In this document: positions 2,126 through 9,649 of the stretch, one piece after another | Layout: each line of letters opens with the position of its first letter | How positions within the stretch are numbered: position 1 is the first letter of the stretch | NCBI GenBank assembly: GCA_020846815.1 | Contig: JADLDF010000284.1 | Span: forward strand, 1 to 12,077 | Length of the DNA stretch: 12,077 nt | Direction of reading: 5' to 3' | Source of the DNA: Gammaproteobacteria bacterium | GTDB taxonomy: Bacteria; Pseudomonadota; Gammaproteobacteria; Steroidobacterales; Steroidobacteraceae | Program-made: the position numbers and the translations under genes | Notes under the pieces: generated by a model | Database searches by the model: none | The model's input: only the letters and a program-made list of their open reading frames with translations | What the model was told of the DNA's origin: nothing

Positions 2126-2695
2126 GTGGCGCGCGCGTCCAGCGTCGCTTCGCTTCGGGCCGGCACTGCGGCCCGCGGCGTCGCCTCGCCAGCGATGATG
2201 GCGATGCTGCTGCTGGCCGTGCTGCCGCTGCTGCTGTCGGCCTGTGGCTTCCGGCTGCAGGGCAGGGTGCCGCTGCCGGCCTCGCTGGCCTCGACCTGGA
2301 TCGAGACCGAGGATGCGCAGAGCGACTTCGTCGTCGACCTGAAGCGCGCGCTGCGCGCTTCCGGCGCGATGCTCGCGGCGCGGCGGGAGGAGGCGACGGC
2401 CGTGGTGCGCGTGGAGCGCGACGAGCTCACCGAGAGCGTGCTGTCGGTCTCCGGCCGCAATCTGCCGCGCGAGGTCGAGCTGACCTACACCGTGCGCCTC
2501 GCGGTCGAGGGTCAAGGCGAAGGCCAGGGCCAGGGCCGGACGCTGCTCCCGTCCGAAGAGTTCGCCGTGTCGCGCGACCAGAGCTTCGCCGAAGAGCAGT
2601 TGCTGGCCAAGGAACGCGAGCAGGAGATCCTGCGCGCGGCGCTGGCGCGCGACCTGGTCGGCGTGGTCATGCGACGACTGTCGAGCCTGCCGTGA
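2126..2695 (+). CDS. lptE: LPS-assembly lipoprotein LptE
   Basis: LptE is the outer-membrane lipoprotein that plugs the LptD barrel and takes part in the last step of LPS export to the cell surface. The protein (189 aa from GTG 2126) has a hydrophobic stretch at residues 24-39 and a clear lipobox L-S-A-C with Cys40, followed by the family hallmark GFRLQG. The position directly after leuS is the conserved one. The GTG start lies 2 bp past the leuS stop and has no clear ribosome-binding site, suggesting translational coupling. ATG codons at 2195 and 2198 are alternatives, but they would leave a signal peptide without Arg/Lys before the hydrophobic core. Residues 128-138 form an unusual Gly/Glu/Gln repeat within the beta-sheet domain. 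The gene overlaps the next by 4 bp. Confidence 0.9.
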   Translation: MARASSVASLRAGTAARGVASPAMMAMLLLAVLPLLLSACGFRLQGRVPLPASLASTWIETEDAQSDFVVDLKRALRASGAMLAARREEATAVVRVERDELTESVLSVSGRNLPREVELTYTVRLAVEGQGEGQGQGRTLLPSEEFAVSRDQSFAEEQLLAKEREQEILRAALARDLVGVVMRRLSSLP

Positions 2696-3258
2696 GCGGC
2701 GGGGTCAACGCCTCCGCTGCGCCCGCATCCGTGTCCATGCCCGGCTCCGGTCCGCCGCCCGATGGCGAGACACGCGTGCTAAGACTCTTCTCGCTGCCGC
2801 GGCTGCCGCTCGCGCTGTTGCTGGCGCGCTATGGCATGCAATTGCGCCTGGTCGCGCCAGGCGAGCTGATCCCGGGTTCCTACTGGGGCGAGAGCGAAGC
2901 CGGCCTGATCGGCGACGTGCTGTACGCGCGACTCGACACGCCGCTGCATTCGGTGCTGCACGAAGCCAGCCACTACGTCTGCATGTCGCCGGAGCGCCGG
3001 GCGGCGCTCGACCGCGACGCTGGCGGTGACCACGCCGAGGAGTGCGCGGTCTGCCTGCTGCAGATCCTGCTGGCCGAGGCGCTGCCGGGCGTCGGCCGCG
3101 AGCGCATGCTCGCCGACATGGACGCCTGGGGCTACAGCTTCCGCCTCGGCTCGGCGCGCGCTTGGCTCGAACGCGAGGCCGACGACGCCCGCGAATGGCT
3201 GCGACGCGAGGGTCTCGCCGATGAGCGCGATTCGCCTACGTGGCGCTGTCGCGGCTAG
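2692..3258 (+). CDS. Uncharacterised HExxH putative metallopeptidase-like protein
   Basis: No function is known to me. The 188-aa protein starts at a GTG overlapping the lptE stop (GTGA, 4 bp), so it is probably translated by coupling to lptE; an ATG at 2737 is an alternative start. Residues 1-26 are a Pro/Gly/Ser-rich low-complexity leader. The core has a zinc-peptidase-like H90-E91-A-S-H94 in a predicted helix, followed 21-22 residues later by H114-A-E116-E117-C118 and a helix beginning C121-L-L-Q. The two His plus a downstream Glu fit the gluzincin ligand plan. I have a memory of short conserved gammaproteobacterial proteins with the pattern HEaxH...DAGGD..EE.AVC.LQ, which this matches, but none has an assigned role that I can cite. 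There is no convincing signal peptide or membrane segment, so it is probably cytoplasmic. Confidence 0.8.
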   Translation: MSGGVNASAAPASVSMPGSGPPPDGETRVLRLFSLPRLPLALLLARYGMQLRLVAPGELIPGSYWGESEAGLIGDVLYARLDTPLHSVLHEASHYVCMSPERRAALDRDAGGDHAEECAVCLLQILLAEALPGVGRERMLADMDAWGYSFRLGSARAWLEREADDAREWLRREGLADERDSPTWRCRG

Positions 3259-5036: not shown

Positions 5037-5738
5037 CTAATACTTGTAGATCTCGACCTTGCTGGCGGCAAGTGAGTAGGCGGCGGCGCCGAGCTGCGTG
5101 GTCTTCTTGGCGACCTTCATGCGGCCGGTGATCCAGTAGGCCTCGTAGATCGAGTCGAGCGCGATGCCGTTGTCGACTCTGACGTAGACGATCTGGTTCG
5201 GCGGCGGCGGCGGTACGTGGATGCAGGCACCGAAATAGGGCACGAGGAAGAACTCCGAGACGAGGCCGTCCTTGCCGACGTCGAGCGGTACGATGAAGCC
5301 CGGGATCTTGACGTCGACGCCGTCGAGCTGCGGGTTGACGCTGAAGTCCATCGGCTGCGCGGCGGCCATGTCGCCTTCGCCGAGGTAGTCGTGGACCGGC
5401 GGCGGCGGCGCGGCACCGGCGAACTGCGAGCGGGCGTCCTGCGGCACGAGCTCTTCCCAGTCGAGCTCGAGCACCGACGCCGGTCTGGCCGCCGCGGCCT
5501 TCGAGCGGCTTGGCGAGGCCGGTACCGGGGTGCCGACTGCGGGAGCGGCGGCCGGCGCGGGCTGCGGCGGCGTGACGGCGCTGGCGGTCGCGGCGAATAC
5601 CGGCAGCAGCGTCGCCACGAGCATCGCGATGCGGCTGGCCGGCGCAGCTTCCCGGCGGCATGGCCGCGCAATGGCAGGGCGTGACGGCTCTGTGGCGACG
5701 CAGTGGCGGGGAAGTGCGGTGGTGTTGCGCAGTGTCAT
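5037..5738 (-). CDS. DUF3299 periplasmic protein, last gene of putative zinc operon
   Basis: Biochemical role unknown. From ATG 5738 the product is 233 aa, with a basic N-terminus, a hydrophobic segment at 37-54 ending A-T-A-S-A (likely signal peptide), an Ala/Pro-rich linker to about residue 88, then the conserved DUF3299 domain from LDWEELVPQD (92-101) through KIPGFIVPLD and EFFLVPYFGACIHVPPPPPNQ to YWITGRM and the C-terminus. The single Cys172 next to His174 is in the family's conserved motif and could bind metal. The start is uncertain: GTG 5816 and ATG 5792 are nearer the permease stop, and ATG 5624 would give a shorter leader. It follows the ABC permease in the same order as PA4066 follows PA4065 in P. 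aeruginosa, as I recall that locus. Confidence 0.88.
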   Translation of the reverse strand: MTLRNTTALPRHCVATEPSRPAIARPCRREAAPASRIAMLVATLLPVFAATASAVTPPQPAPAAAPAVGTPVPASPSRSKAAAARPASVLELDWEELVPQDARSQFAGAAPPPPVHDYLGEGDMAAAQPMDFSVNPQLDGVDVKIPGFIVPLDVGKDGLVSEFFLVPYFGACIHVPPPPPNQIVYVRVDNGIALDSIYEAYWITGRMKVAKKTTQLGAAAYSLAASKVEIYKY

Positions 5739-5808: not shown

Positions 5809-7074
5809 CTAGACACGAATCGTCAGCCCGTCGCTGAGCGTGTTGCGGTAGGCACGCCAGGCGGGCAGCGCGCCCATCAGGAACGCGATGCCGATGATCG
5901 CCCCGAGCAGACCCAGATCGTAGCGGGTCAGACCCCCGATCTCCAGAAAGATTCCGAAGCGCCGCTCGAGCAGGGGACGCGTGGCCGCGATCACGGCATA
6001 GGTCAGTGCCACGCCGGCGAGCACGCCGCCGGTGGCGAGCGTGCCGGCCTCGGCGACCAGCAGCGCGAACACGTGCCGTGGCTGTGCGCCGACCGAGCGC
6101 AGGATCGCCATCTCGCGCCGCCGCTCGTTGAGGCTCGTCAGGATCGCCGTCAGCATGCCGAGCAGCCCCGCGAGCACGACGAAGGCCGCGACGATCATCA
6201 GCGCCGTGTCGGCGATGCCGACCAGGTCCCAGAGCTGGGTGAGTGCGACGCCGGGGATGATCGCCAGCAGCGGCTCCTGGCGGTATTCGTTGATCGCGCG
6301 CTGCATGGTGAAGGTCATGACCTTGGAGCGCATGCCGATCATGAACGCGGTGATGGAGTCGGGCGTGAGGTCGAGCCGGCGCGCCTGCTCGGCGTCGATG
6401 CGCGCTCCCGCGGGAGCCTGCGTGCCGCTCTGCCAGTCCGCGTGGATCGCGGTGATCGCCTCGAGACCGACGTGTACGGTGCGATCGACCGGCGTGCCGG
6501 TGCGCGCGAGGATGCCGGCGACGCGGAACGGCTTGTCGTCGTGGTTCGCGAAGCTGACGTTGCCCAGGCCGTGCGCGATGACCAGCGGATCGCCGAGCTT
6601 AAGCCCAAGCTGGCGTGCGACGTCGGCGCCGAGCACGGCGTCGTAGAGGTCCTCGAAGCGCCTGCCGGCGGCGAAGCCCAGAGCGCGCGTGCCGGCGTAG
6701 CGGTAGTGTTCGAAGTAGTCTTGCGTCGTGCCCAGCACGCGGAAGCCGCGGTAGGAATCGCCGAGCGAAATCGGAATCGTCCAGGCGACGTCCGGGTGCT
6801 GCGCGATCTTCCGATAGGTCGCCCAGCTGACGTTGGCGGTCGCGTCGCCGACGCGGAACACCGAGTAGAGCAGCAGGTTGAGCTGGCCCGAACGTGCGCC
6901 GACGATCAGGTCGACGCCCGAGACGGTGTTGGCGAAGCCGTCCTTGGCCGCGATGCGCAGCTTCTGCACGCCGAGCAGCAGCGCGACGCTGATCGCGATC
7001 GCGGCCATGGTCAGCAGCGCCGTCGAACGGCGGTTCCAGAGCGAGCGCAGCGCGAGTCCGGGTGTCGGGCTCAT
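5809..7074 (-). CDS. MacB/FtsX-type ABC transporter permease
   Basis: This is the inner-membrane subunit of an ABC system of the mechanotransmission (MacB/LolCE/FtsX) superfamily; substrate unknown. The 421-aa protein has one N-terminal transmembrane segment (about 17-36), a large periplasmic domain (about 40-285) of the MacB_PCD type, and three C-terminal segments (about 288-312, 334-366, 386-406), the 4-TM FtsX layout. The cytoplasmic coupling helix NERRREMAILRSVGAQPRHV (316-335) is typical. The start at 7074 overlaps the ATPase stop as ATGA, indicating tight coupling; the open frame continues upstream but overlaps the ATPase gene. No membrane-fusion protein or outer-membrane channel gene is adjacent, so a tripartite MacAB-TolC pump is unlikely. 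Order and family match PA4065 of P. aeruginosa. Confidence 0.93.
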   Translation of the reverse strand: MSPTPGLALRSLWNRRSTALLTMAAIAISVALLLGVQKLRIAAKDGFANTVSGVDLIVGARSGQLNLLLYSVFRVGDATANVSWATYRKIAQHPDVAWTIPISLGDSYRGFRVLGTTQDYFEHYRYAGTRALGFAAGRRFEDLYDAVLGADVARQLGLKLGDPLVIAHGLGNVSFANHDDKPFRVAGILARTGTPVDRTVHVGLEAITAIHADWQSGTQAPAGARIDAEQARRLDLTPDSITAFMIGMRSKVMTFTMQRAINEYRQEPLLAIIPGVALTQLWDLVGIADTALMIVAAFVVLAGLLGMLTAILTSLNERRREMAILRSVGAQPRHVFALLVAEAGTLATGGVLAGVALTYAVIAATRPLLERRFGIFLEIGGLTRYDLGLLGAIIGIAFLMGALPAWRAYRNTLSDGLTIRV

Positions 7075-7817
7075 GGCGTGGTGGCGCGGTTCAGCTCCGC
7101 GAGCGAGTCGACGCGGTCGAACAGGCCGCCTAGCGAGGTGTCGTGGCTGACGAACAGCAGCGTCGAGCGCTGGGCCCGGCACTCGTCCATGAGCAGCCGC
7201 AGGAAGTCCTCGCGCGCATCGTGGTCGAGCGCCGAGGTCGGTTCGTCGGCGACGATGATCTCCGGCCGGCCCAGCAGCGCGCGTGCCGCCGCGACGCGCT
7301 GCTGCTGGCCGATCGACAGCTGCGTGACTTCGCGATCGAGCATCGCGCGGTCCGCGAGCCCGAGCGCCGCCAGCAGTCGCAGCGCCTCGGCGCGCAGCGC
7401 GGCGCGGTCGCCGATGCGGCCGGCGCGCCGCGCCGAGAACTGCGCCGGCAGCATGACGTTCTGCAGCACGCCGAGGTAGGGAATGAGGTTGAACATCTGG
7501 AACACGAAGCCGATGTGCTCGCCGCGGAAGCGGTCGCGCCCGCTCGCCGGCAGCCGGCTGATCTCGGTGCCGAGCAGGCGCACGCGGCCGCGGTCCGGCG
7601 TGAGCACGCCGCCGACCAGGCCGAGCAGCGTGCTCTTGCCGCTGCCGCTCGGCCCGCGCAGGAACACGCGCTCGCCGCGCGCGACGGCGTAGCGATCGAT
7701 CTGCAGTAGCGGCGGCTTGCCCGGCCAGGCGAACACCAGGTCCTCGATCTCGATCGCCGGGCTCGCCGCTGCTGCGGCGTTCGCGCGCGCCTCTGGCGCC
7801 GCCCCCTGGCCCCTCAT
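7071..7817 (-). CDS. ABC transporter ATP-binding protein (LolD/MacB-like)
   Basis: This is the cytoplasmic ATPase that drives the adjacent permease. The 248-aa protein has Walker A G55-P-S-G-S-G-K-S-T63, a Q-loop F-Q107-M-F-N, a signature L167-S-I-G-Q-Q-Q-R in place of LSGGQ, Walker B I-I-V-A-D-E192, a D-loop S-A-L-D and the switch His225 in VSHD. The Ile in the signature is a mild deviation. The start ATG 7817 lies 4 bp after the DUF2796 stop, with GAGG-type purine-rich sequence inside the end of that gene. Residues 1-20 form an Ala-rich extension before the first beta-strand. Its 3' end overlaps the permease start by 4 bp. Confidence 0.94.
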   Translation of the reverse strand: MRGQGAAPEARANAAAAASPAIEIEDLVFAWPGKPPLLQIDRYAVARGERVFLRGPSGSGKSTLLGLVGGVLTPDRGRVRLLGTEISRLPASGRDRFRGEHIGFVFQMFNLIPYLGVLQNVMLPAQFSARRAGRIGDRAALRAEALRLLAALGLADRAMLDREVTQLSIGQQQRVAAARALLGRPEIIVADEPTSALDHDAREDFLRLLMDECRAQRSTLLFVSHDTSLGGLFDRVDSLAELNRATTP

Positions 7818-7821
7818 CGCC

Positions 7822-8445
7822 TCACCTCAGTTCGATCCGCGCGGCATCTGCGCCGAGCGTGCGCTGCGTCTGGAGTTGCGGCGTGACCAGGTTGACCTCG
7901 ATCTCGGCGACGTTCTTCAGGCGGCGCAACAGCCACAGGTCGACCCAGGCGAGCGCCGCCGGGTTCGCACAGTTGTAGGTGAAGCGCGCCAGATAATCGC
8001 TGTGCATGTCGTCGTCGGCTTCGTGCTCGTGTTCGTGTTCGTGCTCATGATCGTGTGCCTGGGCCGAGGCATCGCTGCCGGGCCGCGGCGGTGTGTAGTC
8101 GACGCGCGCACGCTCGCAGCGGGCGGTCGCCGGCACGCCGAGCATGCCGACTCCCGAGGCGAGCCAGCGATCGACGGCCGCGGCCTCGCGCCGTTCCGCA
8201 TCGCTGCGCGGCGCGCGCTCGAAGCCGACGACGTTGATCGCCGGTGCGTCGAGCTCGGCCGACAGCGTGCCGCCCTCGAGCGCCAGGTTGACGACGACCT
8301 TGCCGTGCAGGTGGGCGCCGCGCTGGACGAAGCCATCGGCCGTGGCCGTGGCGGCCGCGGGTTCCGTCGCGGCATCCCGCGCCTGCAGCGACGGCGCAGC
8401 GAGGCCGAGCATGGCGGCGAGTAGCACGAGCGAGGGGCGGGGCAT
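7822..8445 (-). CDS. DUF2796 His-rich periplasmic protein, first gene of putative zinc operon
   Basis: Probable metal-binding periplasmic protein; exact role unknown. From ATG 8445 the product is 207 aa with a signal peptide (hydrophobic 6-18, likely cleavage after LQA, residue 22). The mature part begins with H45-L-H-G, a beta-rich DUF2796 domain with V-V-G-F-E-R-A-P, and a loop of alternating His and acidic residues (131-141, six His in eleven residues, plus H148). The C-terminus LARFTYNCANPAALAW...LRRLKNVAEIEVNLVT is the family hallmark. C110 and C159 could form a disulphide. AGGAGG ends seven bases before ATG 8445, favouring it over ATG 8451 and 8463. A Zur-type palindrome lies 130 bp upstream, and the family and order match PA4063 of P. 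aeruginosa. Confidence 0.9.
   Translation of the reverse strand: MPRPSLVLLAAMLGLAAPSLQARDAATEPAAATATADGFVQRGAHLHGKVVVNLALEGGTLSAELDAPAINVVGFERAPRSDAERREAAAVDRWLASGVGMLGVPATARCERARVDYTPPRPGSDASAQAHDHEHEHEHEHEADDDMHSDYLARFTYNCANPAALAWVDLWLLRRLKNVAEIEVNLVTPQLQTQRTLGADAARIELR
8023..8055 (-). repeat. His-Glu/Asp codon repeat encoding a metal-binding loop
   Basis: Eleven codons alternate His with Asp or Glu (H-D-H-E-H-E-H-E-H-E-H, residues 131-141 of the DUF2796 protein). At DNA level it is an imperfect 6-bp tandem repeat that could change length by slippage without a frameshift. Such loops in periplasmic proteins typically bind zinc or nickel. Confidence 0.75.
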
Positions 8446-8452
8446 CGGCATT

Positions 8453-8458
8453 CCTCCT
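8453..8458 (-). promoter_or_regulatory. Ribosome-binding site deciding the DUF2796 start
   Basis: A full AGGAGG on the minus strand is seven bases from ATG 8445 but only one base from ATG 8451, so 8445 is preferred. Confidence 0.75.
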
Positions 8459-8525
8459 GGCATCGGGGCCTCGAGACCGCAAGCGTACGCGGGCCTTGCG
8501 CGGGGCCGTTGGACAAAGTCGGCAC

Positions 8526-8540
8526 CGGGCTGAATGCCCG
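8526..8540 (-). other. Hairpin in the DUF2796 leader
   Basis: Perfect 5-bp arms CGGGC/GCCCG with a 5-base loop, lying between the Zur-type box and the DUF2796 start and therefore in the expected 5' leader. Function unknown. Confidence 0.4.
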
Positions 8541-8548
8541 ATACACGC

Positions 8549-8568
8549 CGGCCCTGCACGCGGGGCCG
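8549..8568 (-). other. GC-rich hairpin beside the Zur-type box
   Basis: Perfect 6-bp arms CGGCCC (8549-8554) and GGGCCG (8563-8568) enclose an 8-base loop, six bases from the palindrome at 8575. A related sequence ending in the same nine bases, GCGGGGCCG, is at 8490-8508. It would lie at the start of the operon transcript. Confidence 0.4.
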
Positions 8569-8577
8569 CTGAGAGTT

Positions 8578-8583
8578 ATTGTA
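8578..8583 (-). promoter_or_regulatory. Candidate -10 box for the DUF2796 operon
   Basis: TACAAT on the minus strand lies inside the Zur-type palindrome. No good -35 is seen at 16-18 bases. It implies a leader of about 120 bases before the DUF2796 start. Confidence 0.35.
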
Positions 8584-8587
8584 TAAC
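8582..8587 (+). promoter_or_regulatory. Candidate -10 box for holA
   Basis: TATAAC, five of six matches to TATAAT, lies inside the Zur-type palindrome about 55 bases before the holA start. The sequence 17 bases upstream is GC-rich and not a -35. Confidence 0.3.
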
Positions 8588-8641
8588 ACATCATCTCCGC
8601 GATGGGACAGAAGGGAGCCGCTGACGGATAATCGCATCGCG

Positions 8642-9649
8642 ATGAAGCTGACCCTCGAGAACTTCTCCAGCCACCTGAAGGGCCGGCTCGCTCCCATATA
8701 CCTGGTCTCCGGCGACGAGGCGCTGCTGGTCGGGGAGGCCTGCGACGCGATCCGGGTCCGTGCCCGTGCCGAGGGTTTCGCGACGCGGGAGGTACACTTC
8801 GTCGAGCGTGCCGCGGACTGGTCGGCGATCGAGGGCTCGGTCGGCACGCTGTCGCTTTTCGGTGAGCAGCGTCTGCTCGAAATCCGGATGTCCAGCGCCA
8901 AGCCCGGCAAGGAGGGCGGCAGGGTGCTCACGGCGCTCGCCCGGGCCGGCACCGAGACCCTGGTGCTCGTCGTCGCACCGCGCCTCGACCGCGATGCGCA
9001 GACGAGCGCCTGGGTCAAGGCACTGAGCGATGCCGGCGTCTGGCTGCCGCTCTGGGACGTCGACGCCGCGCGCTTGCCGGCCTGGCTCGCGCAGCGCTGC
9101 CGGCGCGCCGGCTTCACCGCGAGCGAGGAAGCGCTGGAGCTGCTCGCCGCGCGTGTCGAAGGCAACCTCCTGGCCGGCCAGCAGGAGATCGACAAGCTGC
9201 GCCTGCTCGTCGACGGCGAGCGGCTCGAGGCACAGCACGTGCTCGCCGCAGTCGCCGACAGCTCGCGCTACGACGTGTTCCGCCTCGGCGAGGCGGTGCT
9301 CGCCGGCGATGCGCCACGCGCGCTGCGCGTCGTCGAGGGCTTGCGCGGCGAGGGCATCGAGCCGACGCTGGTGCTCTGGGCGCTGACGCGCGAGCTGCGG
9401 CAGCTCTGGTCGCTGCGCCAGGGCGCGCCCACTGGGCGCGGCGGCTGGGTGCCGCCGGCGCAGGCCGCGGCCCTGGAGCGCGCCAGGGCGCGCCTGCCGC
9501 GCTTCCCGTTCGCACGGCTCGCGGCACGCGCGCTGCGCGCCGACCGCATGATCAAAGGCCGGCTGCAGGGCGAGCCCTGGGACGAGATCCTGCTGCTGTG
9601 CGCGGAATTCTGCGGCCTGCGGGCGCCGCCTCCGCCGCGCGGCACCTGA
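8642..9649 (+). CDS. holA: DNA polymerase III subunit delta
   Basis: HolA is the clamp-loader delta subunit that opens the beta sliding clamp during replication. The 335-aa protein is close to the 343 aa of E. coli. Recognisable parts are the N-terminal LAPIYLVSGDEALLVGEACDAIR (16-38), the clamp-binding region SLFGEQRLLEIR, EGNLLAGQQEIDKLRLL in the middle domain, SSRYDVFRLGEAVLAGD, and the C-terminal collar domain ending DEILLLCAEF. ATG 8642 gives the usual MKLT... start; the open frame runs 21 codons further up, across the Zur-type box, and that part is not family-like. No strong ribosome-binding site is visible. It would normally follow lptE directly, but here about 5.9 kb separate the two. 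Confidence 0.94.
   Translation: MKLTLENFSSHLKGRLAPIYLVSGDEALLVGEACDAIRVRARAEGFATREVHFVERAADWSAIEGSVGTLSLFGEQRLLEIRMSSAKPGKEGGRVLTALARAGTETLVLVVAPRLDRDAQTSAWVKALSDAGVWLPLWDVDAARLPAWLAQRCRRAGFTASEEALELLAARVEGNLLAGQQEIDKLRLLVDGERLEAQHVLAAVADSSRYDVFRLGEAVLAGDAPRALRVVEGLRGEGIEPTLVLWALTRELRQLWSLRQGAPTGRGGWVPPAQAAALERARARLPRFPFARLAARALRADRMIKGRLQGEPWDEILLLCAEFCGLRAPPPPRGT

Follow-up and report, generated by a model that had tools for sequence, protein, structure and literature searches.

The window, by which we mean the whole stretch of 12,077 nucleotides analysed here, carries leuS, lptE and an ORF on the left of its plus strand, a minus-strand block comprising pip, a HIT gene and the genes for a DUF3299 protein, an FtsX/MacB-type permease, an ABC ATPase and ZrgA, and, on the plus strand to the right, holA, nadD, rsfS, rlmH and maf (the names leuS, lptE, pip, rlmH and maf are assignments by eye; Table 1). 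The ORF after lptE (2692-3258) has no Pfam match and is retained in relatives, while within leuS the G+C content falls to 52 percent at 526-675 as compared to approximately 65-75 percent around it. Read from zrgA, a ZrgA-family protein is followed by an ABC ATPase, an FtsX/MacB-type permease and a DUF3299 protein, the arrangement by which a ZrgA/PA4063 operon was recognised. The original prediction had described a DUF2796-ABC-DUF3299 operon, and those genes are present, with the permease gene lying between the ATPase and DUF3299 genes; the likeness it drew to the gene order of P. aeruginosa PA4063-PA4066 was borne out in all five Pseudomonas loci compared, P. aeruginosa not being among them. 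The window ZrgA matches the PA4063 structure 7ahw (E 1.4e-23) and the solved zinc-binding protein 8ezw of Vibrio (E 4.4e-11), the ZrgA family being shared with the Vibrio zrgABC(DE) system; against the NCBIfam ZrgA equivalog it scores 104 bits, below the cut-off of 185. The DUF3299 protein matches structure 4hsp (PA4066) with an E-value of 1.7e-38.

Table 1. Features of the zrgA-holA region of the window, with the basis of each assignment
Feature	Coordinates	Strand	Basis
DUF3299 protein (PA4066-like; exact start uncertain)	5037..5738	-	Pfam PF11736, 148.2 bits
FtsX/MacB-type permease	5809..7074	-	Pfam FtsX and MacB_PCD
ABC transporter ATPase (LolD/MacB-like)	7071..7817	-	Pfam ABC_tran
zrgA (DUF2796, His-rich periplasmic zinc-binding protein)	7822..8445	-	Pfam PF10986, 141.5 bits
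Box-zrgA stretch, 129 nt	8446..8574	.	Position of the ZnuD-like receptor gene in 21/25 relatives; no remnant found
Predicted Zur box, core GTTATTGTATAAC	8575..8587	.	Core and consensus scans, gap shuffles, conservation in kin
Extended -10-like element TGTTATACA of the zrg operon, inside the box (putative promoter)	8580..8588	-	Read from sequence
holA promoter-like GGGACA-17-GATAAT, separate from the box	8604..8632	+	Sequence; GATAAT conserved in kin
holA (DNA polymerase III delta), divergent neighbour	8642..9649	+	Pfam PF06144

The divergent starts of zrgA and holA are separated by a gap of 196 nt (8446-8641), within which the palindrome GTTATTGTATAAC was found exactly where it had been reported, with two 5-base arms flanking three central bases (GTTAT-TGT-ATAAC) and lying 129 nt upstream of the zrgA start (8445) and 54 nt upstream of the holA start. 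The single-base difference from the Zur core GTTATANTATAAC also held, as the sole match to this core in the 12,077 bases at up to three mismatches is that at 8575-8587, with one mismatch; one or more matches at this tolerance occurred in 14 of 200 shuffled versions of the full window. The Pseudomonas Zur consensus GWWAYWNNNTWHCR, as published in the available text of PMC10393844, likewise has a single match on both strands of the window, at 8575. As regards the E. coli Zur box, the central 13-base core is shared with one mismatch, whereas the wider motif TRWNAYRWTATAWYRTNWCA given in the text seen of PMC6103462 has no match in the window at up to three mismatches, such that the core alone is matched. 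Since the motif is merely 13 bases long, a chance palindrome might be entertained; however, shuffles of the 196-nt gap matched the core with at most one mismatch in 0 of 4000 cases (1 of 4000 at up to two mismatches and 41 of 4000 at up to three), in line with the earlier view that the site is improbable by chance, and the site is kept in 23 of 24 zrgA-bearing relatives, on which combined grounds chance was rejected as an origin whose probability is vanishingly small. The wider E. coli motif is enterobacterial and is not a requirement for other Zur boxes.

Conservation of the site, along with zur and znu genes, was examined in the genomes of relatives rather than in that of the window's own organism. 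The named close ZrgA homologues belong to Steroidobacteraceae MAGs, and one homologue, P0002, shares 88 percent identity with the window ZrgA. A holA search covered 346 genomes of one order, 40 of which have a ZrgA match, and a ZrgA search covered 217 genomes of one family, 30 of which have a match; of these 30, stretches from 25 were compared, G702, G616, G753, G787 and G798 (E-values 2e-18 to 7e-4) being omitted. The 25 genomes yield 26 loci, as G517 is represented on two contigs, and conservation was counted over 24 of them, L113 and L186 having no holA start in the stretch, while 17 relatives without a ZrgA match, the remainder of the 30 best holA loci, served as a zrgA-less control. The kin used represent the order of G019, reached via the shared ORF beside lptE; an order centred on G042, which was picked by LeuS score, gave no zrgA match in 19 genomes. 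The nearest relative, G819, shares 67, 81 and 96 percent identity with the window in ZrgA, holA and nadD, respectively. Where the stretches are long enough the kin present the order lptE-ORF, pip, HIT, DUF3299, permease, ABC, zrgA, in most loci a ZnuD-like receptor gene, and holA. The orientation of HIT and pip in G819 (L181:3033-4377) is opposite to that seen in the window and the other kin, and these two genes need therefore not belong to the zinc operon.

Upstream of holA, in the same gap, a site with one to three mismatches to the core was present in 23 of the 24 zrgA-bearing relatives: the best core match within 150 nt of holA had one mismatch in five loci, two in eight and three in ten, the remaining relative, G769, having no site there and a best match with six mismatches. 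The Pseudomonas consensus was matched in 22 of the 24, the exceptions being G769 and G550, the latter with three mismatches to the core. The 13-mer of G632 is identical to that of the window and likewise stands at -67 relative to holA. In none of the 17 zrgA-less relatives was the Pseudomonas consensus found upstream of holA, and their best core matches had three to seven mismatches; that with three in L090 is not palindromic. The two groups differ with p values of 2e-7 (Mann-Whitney) and 1e-9 (Fisher), which kinship causes to overstate independence. The site thus accompanies the zrg operon rather than holA, as judged from its presence with zrgA and the absence of the consensus without it, and conservation of the palindrome in relatives, set beforehand as a test, was upheld. 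Apparent poor conservation in the nearest kin had emerged from an initial scan that covered at most 350 nt ahead of zrgA in each of 65 loci and found the core at up to two mismatches in 13 (L001 and L007 being one genome); the cause was the ZnuD-like gene that separates the box from zrgA, which makes the holA side of the gap the right search region, and poor conservation was dismissed. At a loose threshold of up to four mismatches, 13 of the 24 relatives have at least two sites within 200 nt. Paired palindromes 15-22 nt apart precede the operon in L103, L104, L107, L109, L111, L112 and L114; the window has one.

As 54 nt separate it from holA, compared with 129 nt from zrgA, the AT-rich palindrome could be supposed to form part of the holA promoter, with TATAAC as its -10 element and no relation to zinc. 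This we regard as very improbable and rejected, on the basis of the zrgA-less controls (0 of 17 with the consensus upstream of holA) and of a separate element, GATAAT, whose first base precedes the holA start by 12-20 nt in 23 of 24 relatives (by 15 nt in the window, 8627-8641), and also as box-holA spacing varies from 53 to 132 nt. Like promoter elements are readable upstream of holA in many zrgA-less relatives, and the closeness of GATAAT to the predicted holA start suggests a very short or absent leader. The earlier assignment of the palindrome to the regulation of the operon is supported; the separate holA promoter had been overlooked. Zinc-loaded Zur might conceivably also tune holA, the box serving both sides, in which case the supply of the delta subunit of the replication clamp loader would be linked to zinc status. 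The box lies 16 nt upstream of the -35-like element of holA in the window and likewise in G819; such co-regulation is nonetheless disfavoured by the same variation in box-holA distance, and we deem it decidedly unlikely.

The box was proposed to sit where a regulator of the first operon gene should sit; it does lie upstream of the operon, but the usual first gene had been overlooked. In 22 of 26 relative loci, or 21 of 25 genomes, a ZnuD-like receptor gene is located between the box and zrgA, and it is missing from L101, L106, L182, L188 and the window. The G819 copy has ZnuD (4rdr) as its best solved relative (E 1.8e-52), and among NCBIfam models that for ZnuD gives the highest scores with the G819 and G632 receptors, 328 and 374 bits, respectively, below its cut-off of 950. 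The box of G632 lies 27 nt from the start of the receptor gene, and the distance of 129 nt between box and zrgA in the window is explained by the absence of the receptor gene. A tblastn search of the window with the ZnuD-like receptor returned nothing of note and no remnant. The absence from the window may be an assembly error, and that from the window and four relatives may represent repeated losses. A literature search on ZnuD together with ZrgA yielded one review.

The motif was also scanned for over whole genomes of relatives. In G632 the strict pattern GTTATNNNATAAC occurs twice, at the zrg site and before a DUF1826-znuCBA operon, where it lies 56 nt before the DUF1826 gene, which is followed by ABC ATPase, ZnuB-type and ZnuA genes; the suggestion that the site should rank with znuA/znuCB, pursued in this relative, agrees with the confinement of the strict pattern to the zrg and znu operons. 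ZnuA was found in two of 14 relatives, G632 and G567, and in both the palindrome precedes the znu genes, in G567 by 9 nt to an ABC ATPase ORF that is followed by a permease-like ORF and ZnuA. The relaxed palindrome RTTAYNNNRTAAY occurs 1-16 times per genome in 14 zrgA-bearing kin as compared to 1-37 times for a backward control, and is thus not enriched as such; it captures the zrg site in ten of the 14 and misses it in four. In G529 and G718 the single RTTAYNNNRTAAY site is the zrg site, and in G632 the three sites are those of zrg and DUF1826-znuCBA and a weaker match ahead of a GGDEF-EAL gene. Several other palindrome matches in relatives, located within ORFs (L147, L150) or ahead of a glpK-like gene named by eye (L149) or a GGDEF-EAL gene (L146), seemed incidental and were set aside. 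The G632 zinc cluster (L145, G632:C182:9000-24500) comprises the boxed DUF1826-znuCBA operon, two CobW genes, one of them beside a second Zur-like gene, and a second DUF3299 gene; a 2-mismatch core match (14501) is found there 25 nt before the ORF preceding the CobW gene beside the second Zur-like gene.

Fur-family genes were detected in all relatives searched (14 of 14 and 11 of 11, thus 25 of 25). A Zur-like class, with scores of about 42 to 59 bits, was assigned by reading of scores in 12 of 14 and 9 of 11 relatives (21 of 25), and 16 of these 21 were checked by identity, namely the G632 query itself and 15 others at 55-83 percent. Beside the checked genes lies a CobW-like gene, weak or truncated in L210 and L211. 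For the copies in G632 and G584 the Zur model is the top-scoring one, with 110 bits in each case, short of the cut-off of 167. Among solved structures, those closest to the G632 protein are 7dh7, a Fur-family regulator, and 4mtd, the zinc uptake regulator. G819 has two Zur-like genes, one being 83 percent identical to the G632 copy and the second (70.6 bits) itself scoring best with the Zur model, below that model's cut-off. In the box-less relative G769 no gene of the Zur-like class was detected, nor was its main Fur, for which reason the assembly may be incomplete. The zur loci in relatives are mostly without a good box, the exceptions being a 3-mismatch site beside zur in L163 and a 2-mismatch site in L210. 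A further Fur-family class (about 61-76 bits, covering model positions 2-99 only) is seen in L128-L136 and in L200-L206 except L202.

As many as three Fur-family genes occur in a relative, among them the class at about 61-76 bits, and the same operon could accordingly be governed by another Fur-family or other dimeric regulator with the palindrome as its operator. This alternative appears unlikely, as the motif is common to the znu loci of G632 and G567 and the site fits the Pseudomonas Zur consensus. The Fur box 7-1-7 motif is TGATAATNATTATCA; the site departs from this motif at 6 of 14 positions, and a Fur box was rejected as the class of the palindrome.

We conclude that the palindrome is very probably a Zur operator for the divergent zrgA-ABC-permease-DUF3299 operon, a reading derived from sequence comparison, and the original prediction of a Zur box for a zinc-starvation operon is supported with the corrections given above, with Zur binding and repression as predicted steps. 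A scripted scan located an element like the extended -10 TGTTATACA over a box in 18 of 24 relatives, and in the text available of PMC10393844 the Zur boxes of P. aeruginosa are described as often overlapping the -10. This overlap in P. aeruginosa, together with the extended -10 located inside the box of the window, makes repression by zinc-loaded Zur the simplest reading, in which the promoter, Zur binding and repression are all predicted, while the zur gene of the window's own organism is presumed from its relatives. With ample zinc, a zinc-loaded Zur dimer would occupy GTTAT-TGT-ATAAC, cover the minus-strand extended -10 and block transcription; with falling zinc, Zur would release the site and the zrg operon would be expressed.

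The window resembles P. aeruginosa PA4063-PA4066 in the order of the ZrgA, ABC ATPase, permease and DUF3299 genes, as judged on the five other Pseudomonas loci, in the matches of its ZrgA and DUF3299 proteins to the PA4063 and PA4066 structures, and in a box that conforms to the Pseudomonas consensus. In the five loci, however, the core (two mismatches) lies 45-49 nt before zrgA as compared to 129 nt in the window, the exact Zur consensus is matched in two and missed in three, and ZrgA is 30-35 percent identical to that of the window. The window operon furthermore diverges from holA, and most relatives have a ZnuD-like first gene. PA4063-PA4066 is presented as Zur-regulated and zinc-repressed in the text seen of PMC11481552, where PA4064-PA4065 are argued to be a MacB-type exporter handling pyochelin-cobalt, while zrgABC is listed as a Zur-regulated zinc uptake system in the available part of PMC6103462 and Vibrio zrg is presented as a zinc uptake system in that of PMC9817125. 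The ZnuD-like neighbour in the kin fits the handling of an outside metal by a transporter that may import or export. A passage of PMC8561739 describes PA4063 as being without homologues in other organisms, a statement that no longer holds.

The switch itself is known; the present analysis would extend the link between Zur and zrg, already described in Pseudomonas and Vibrio, to a lineage whose named kin are Steroidobacteraceae MAGs, for which a literature search on Steroidobacter with zinc uptake regulator found nothing. The ZnuD-like first gene in 21 of 25 relatives is relevant to the substrate of the MacB-like ZrgA system, and in some members, among them the window, the box is retained in the absence of this receptor. 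For annotation, the operon may be called probably zinc-responsive.
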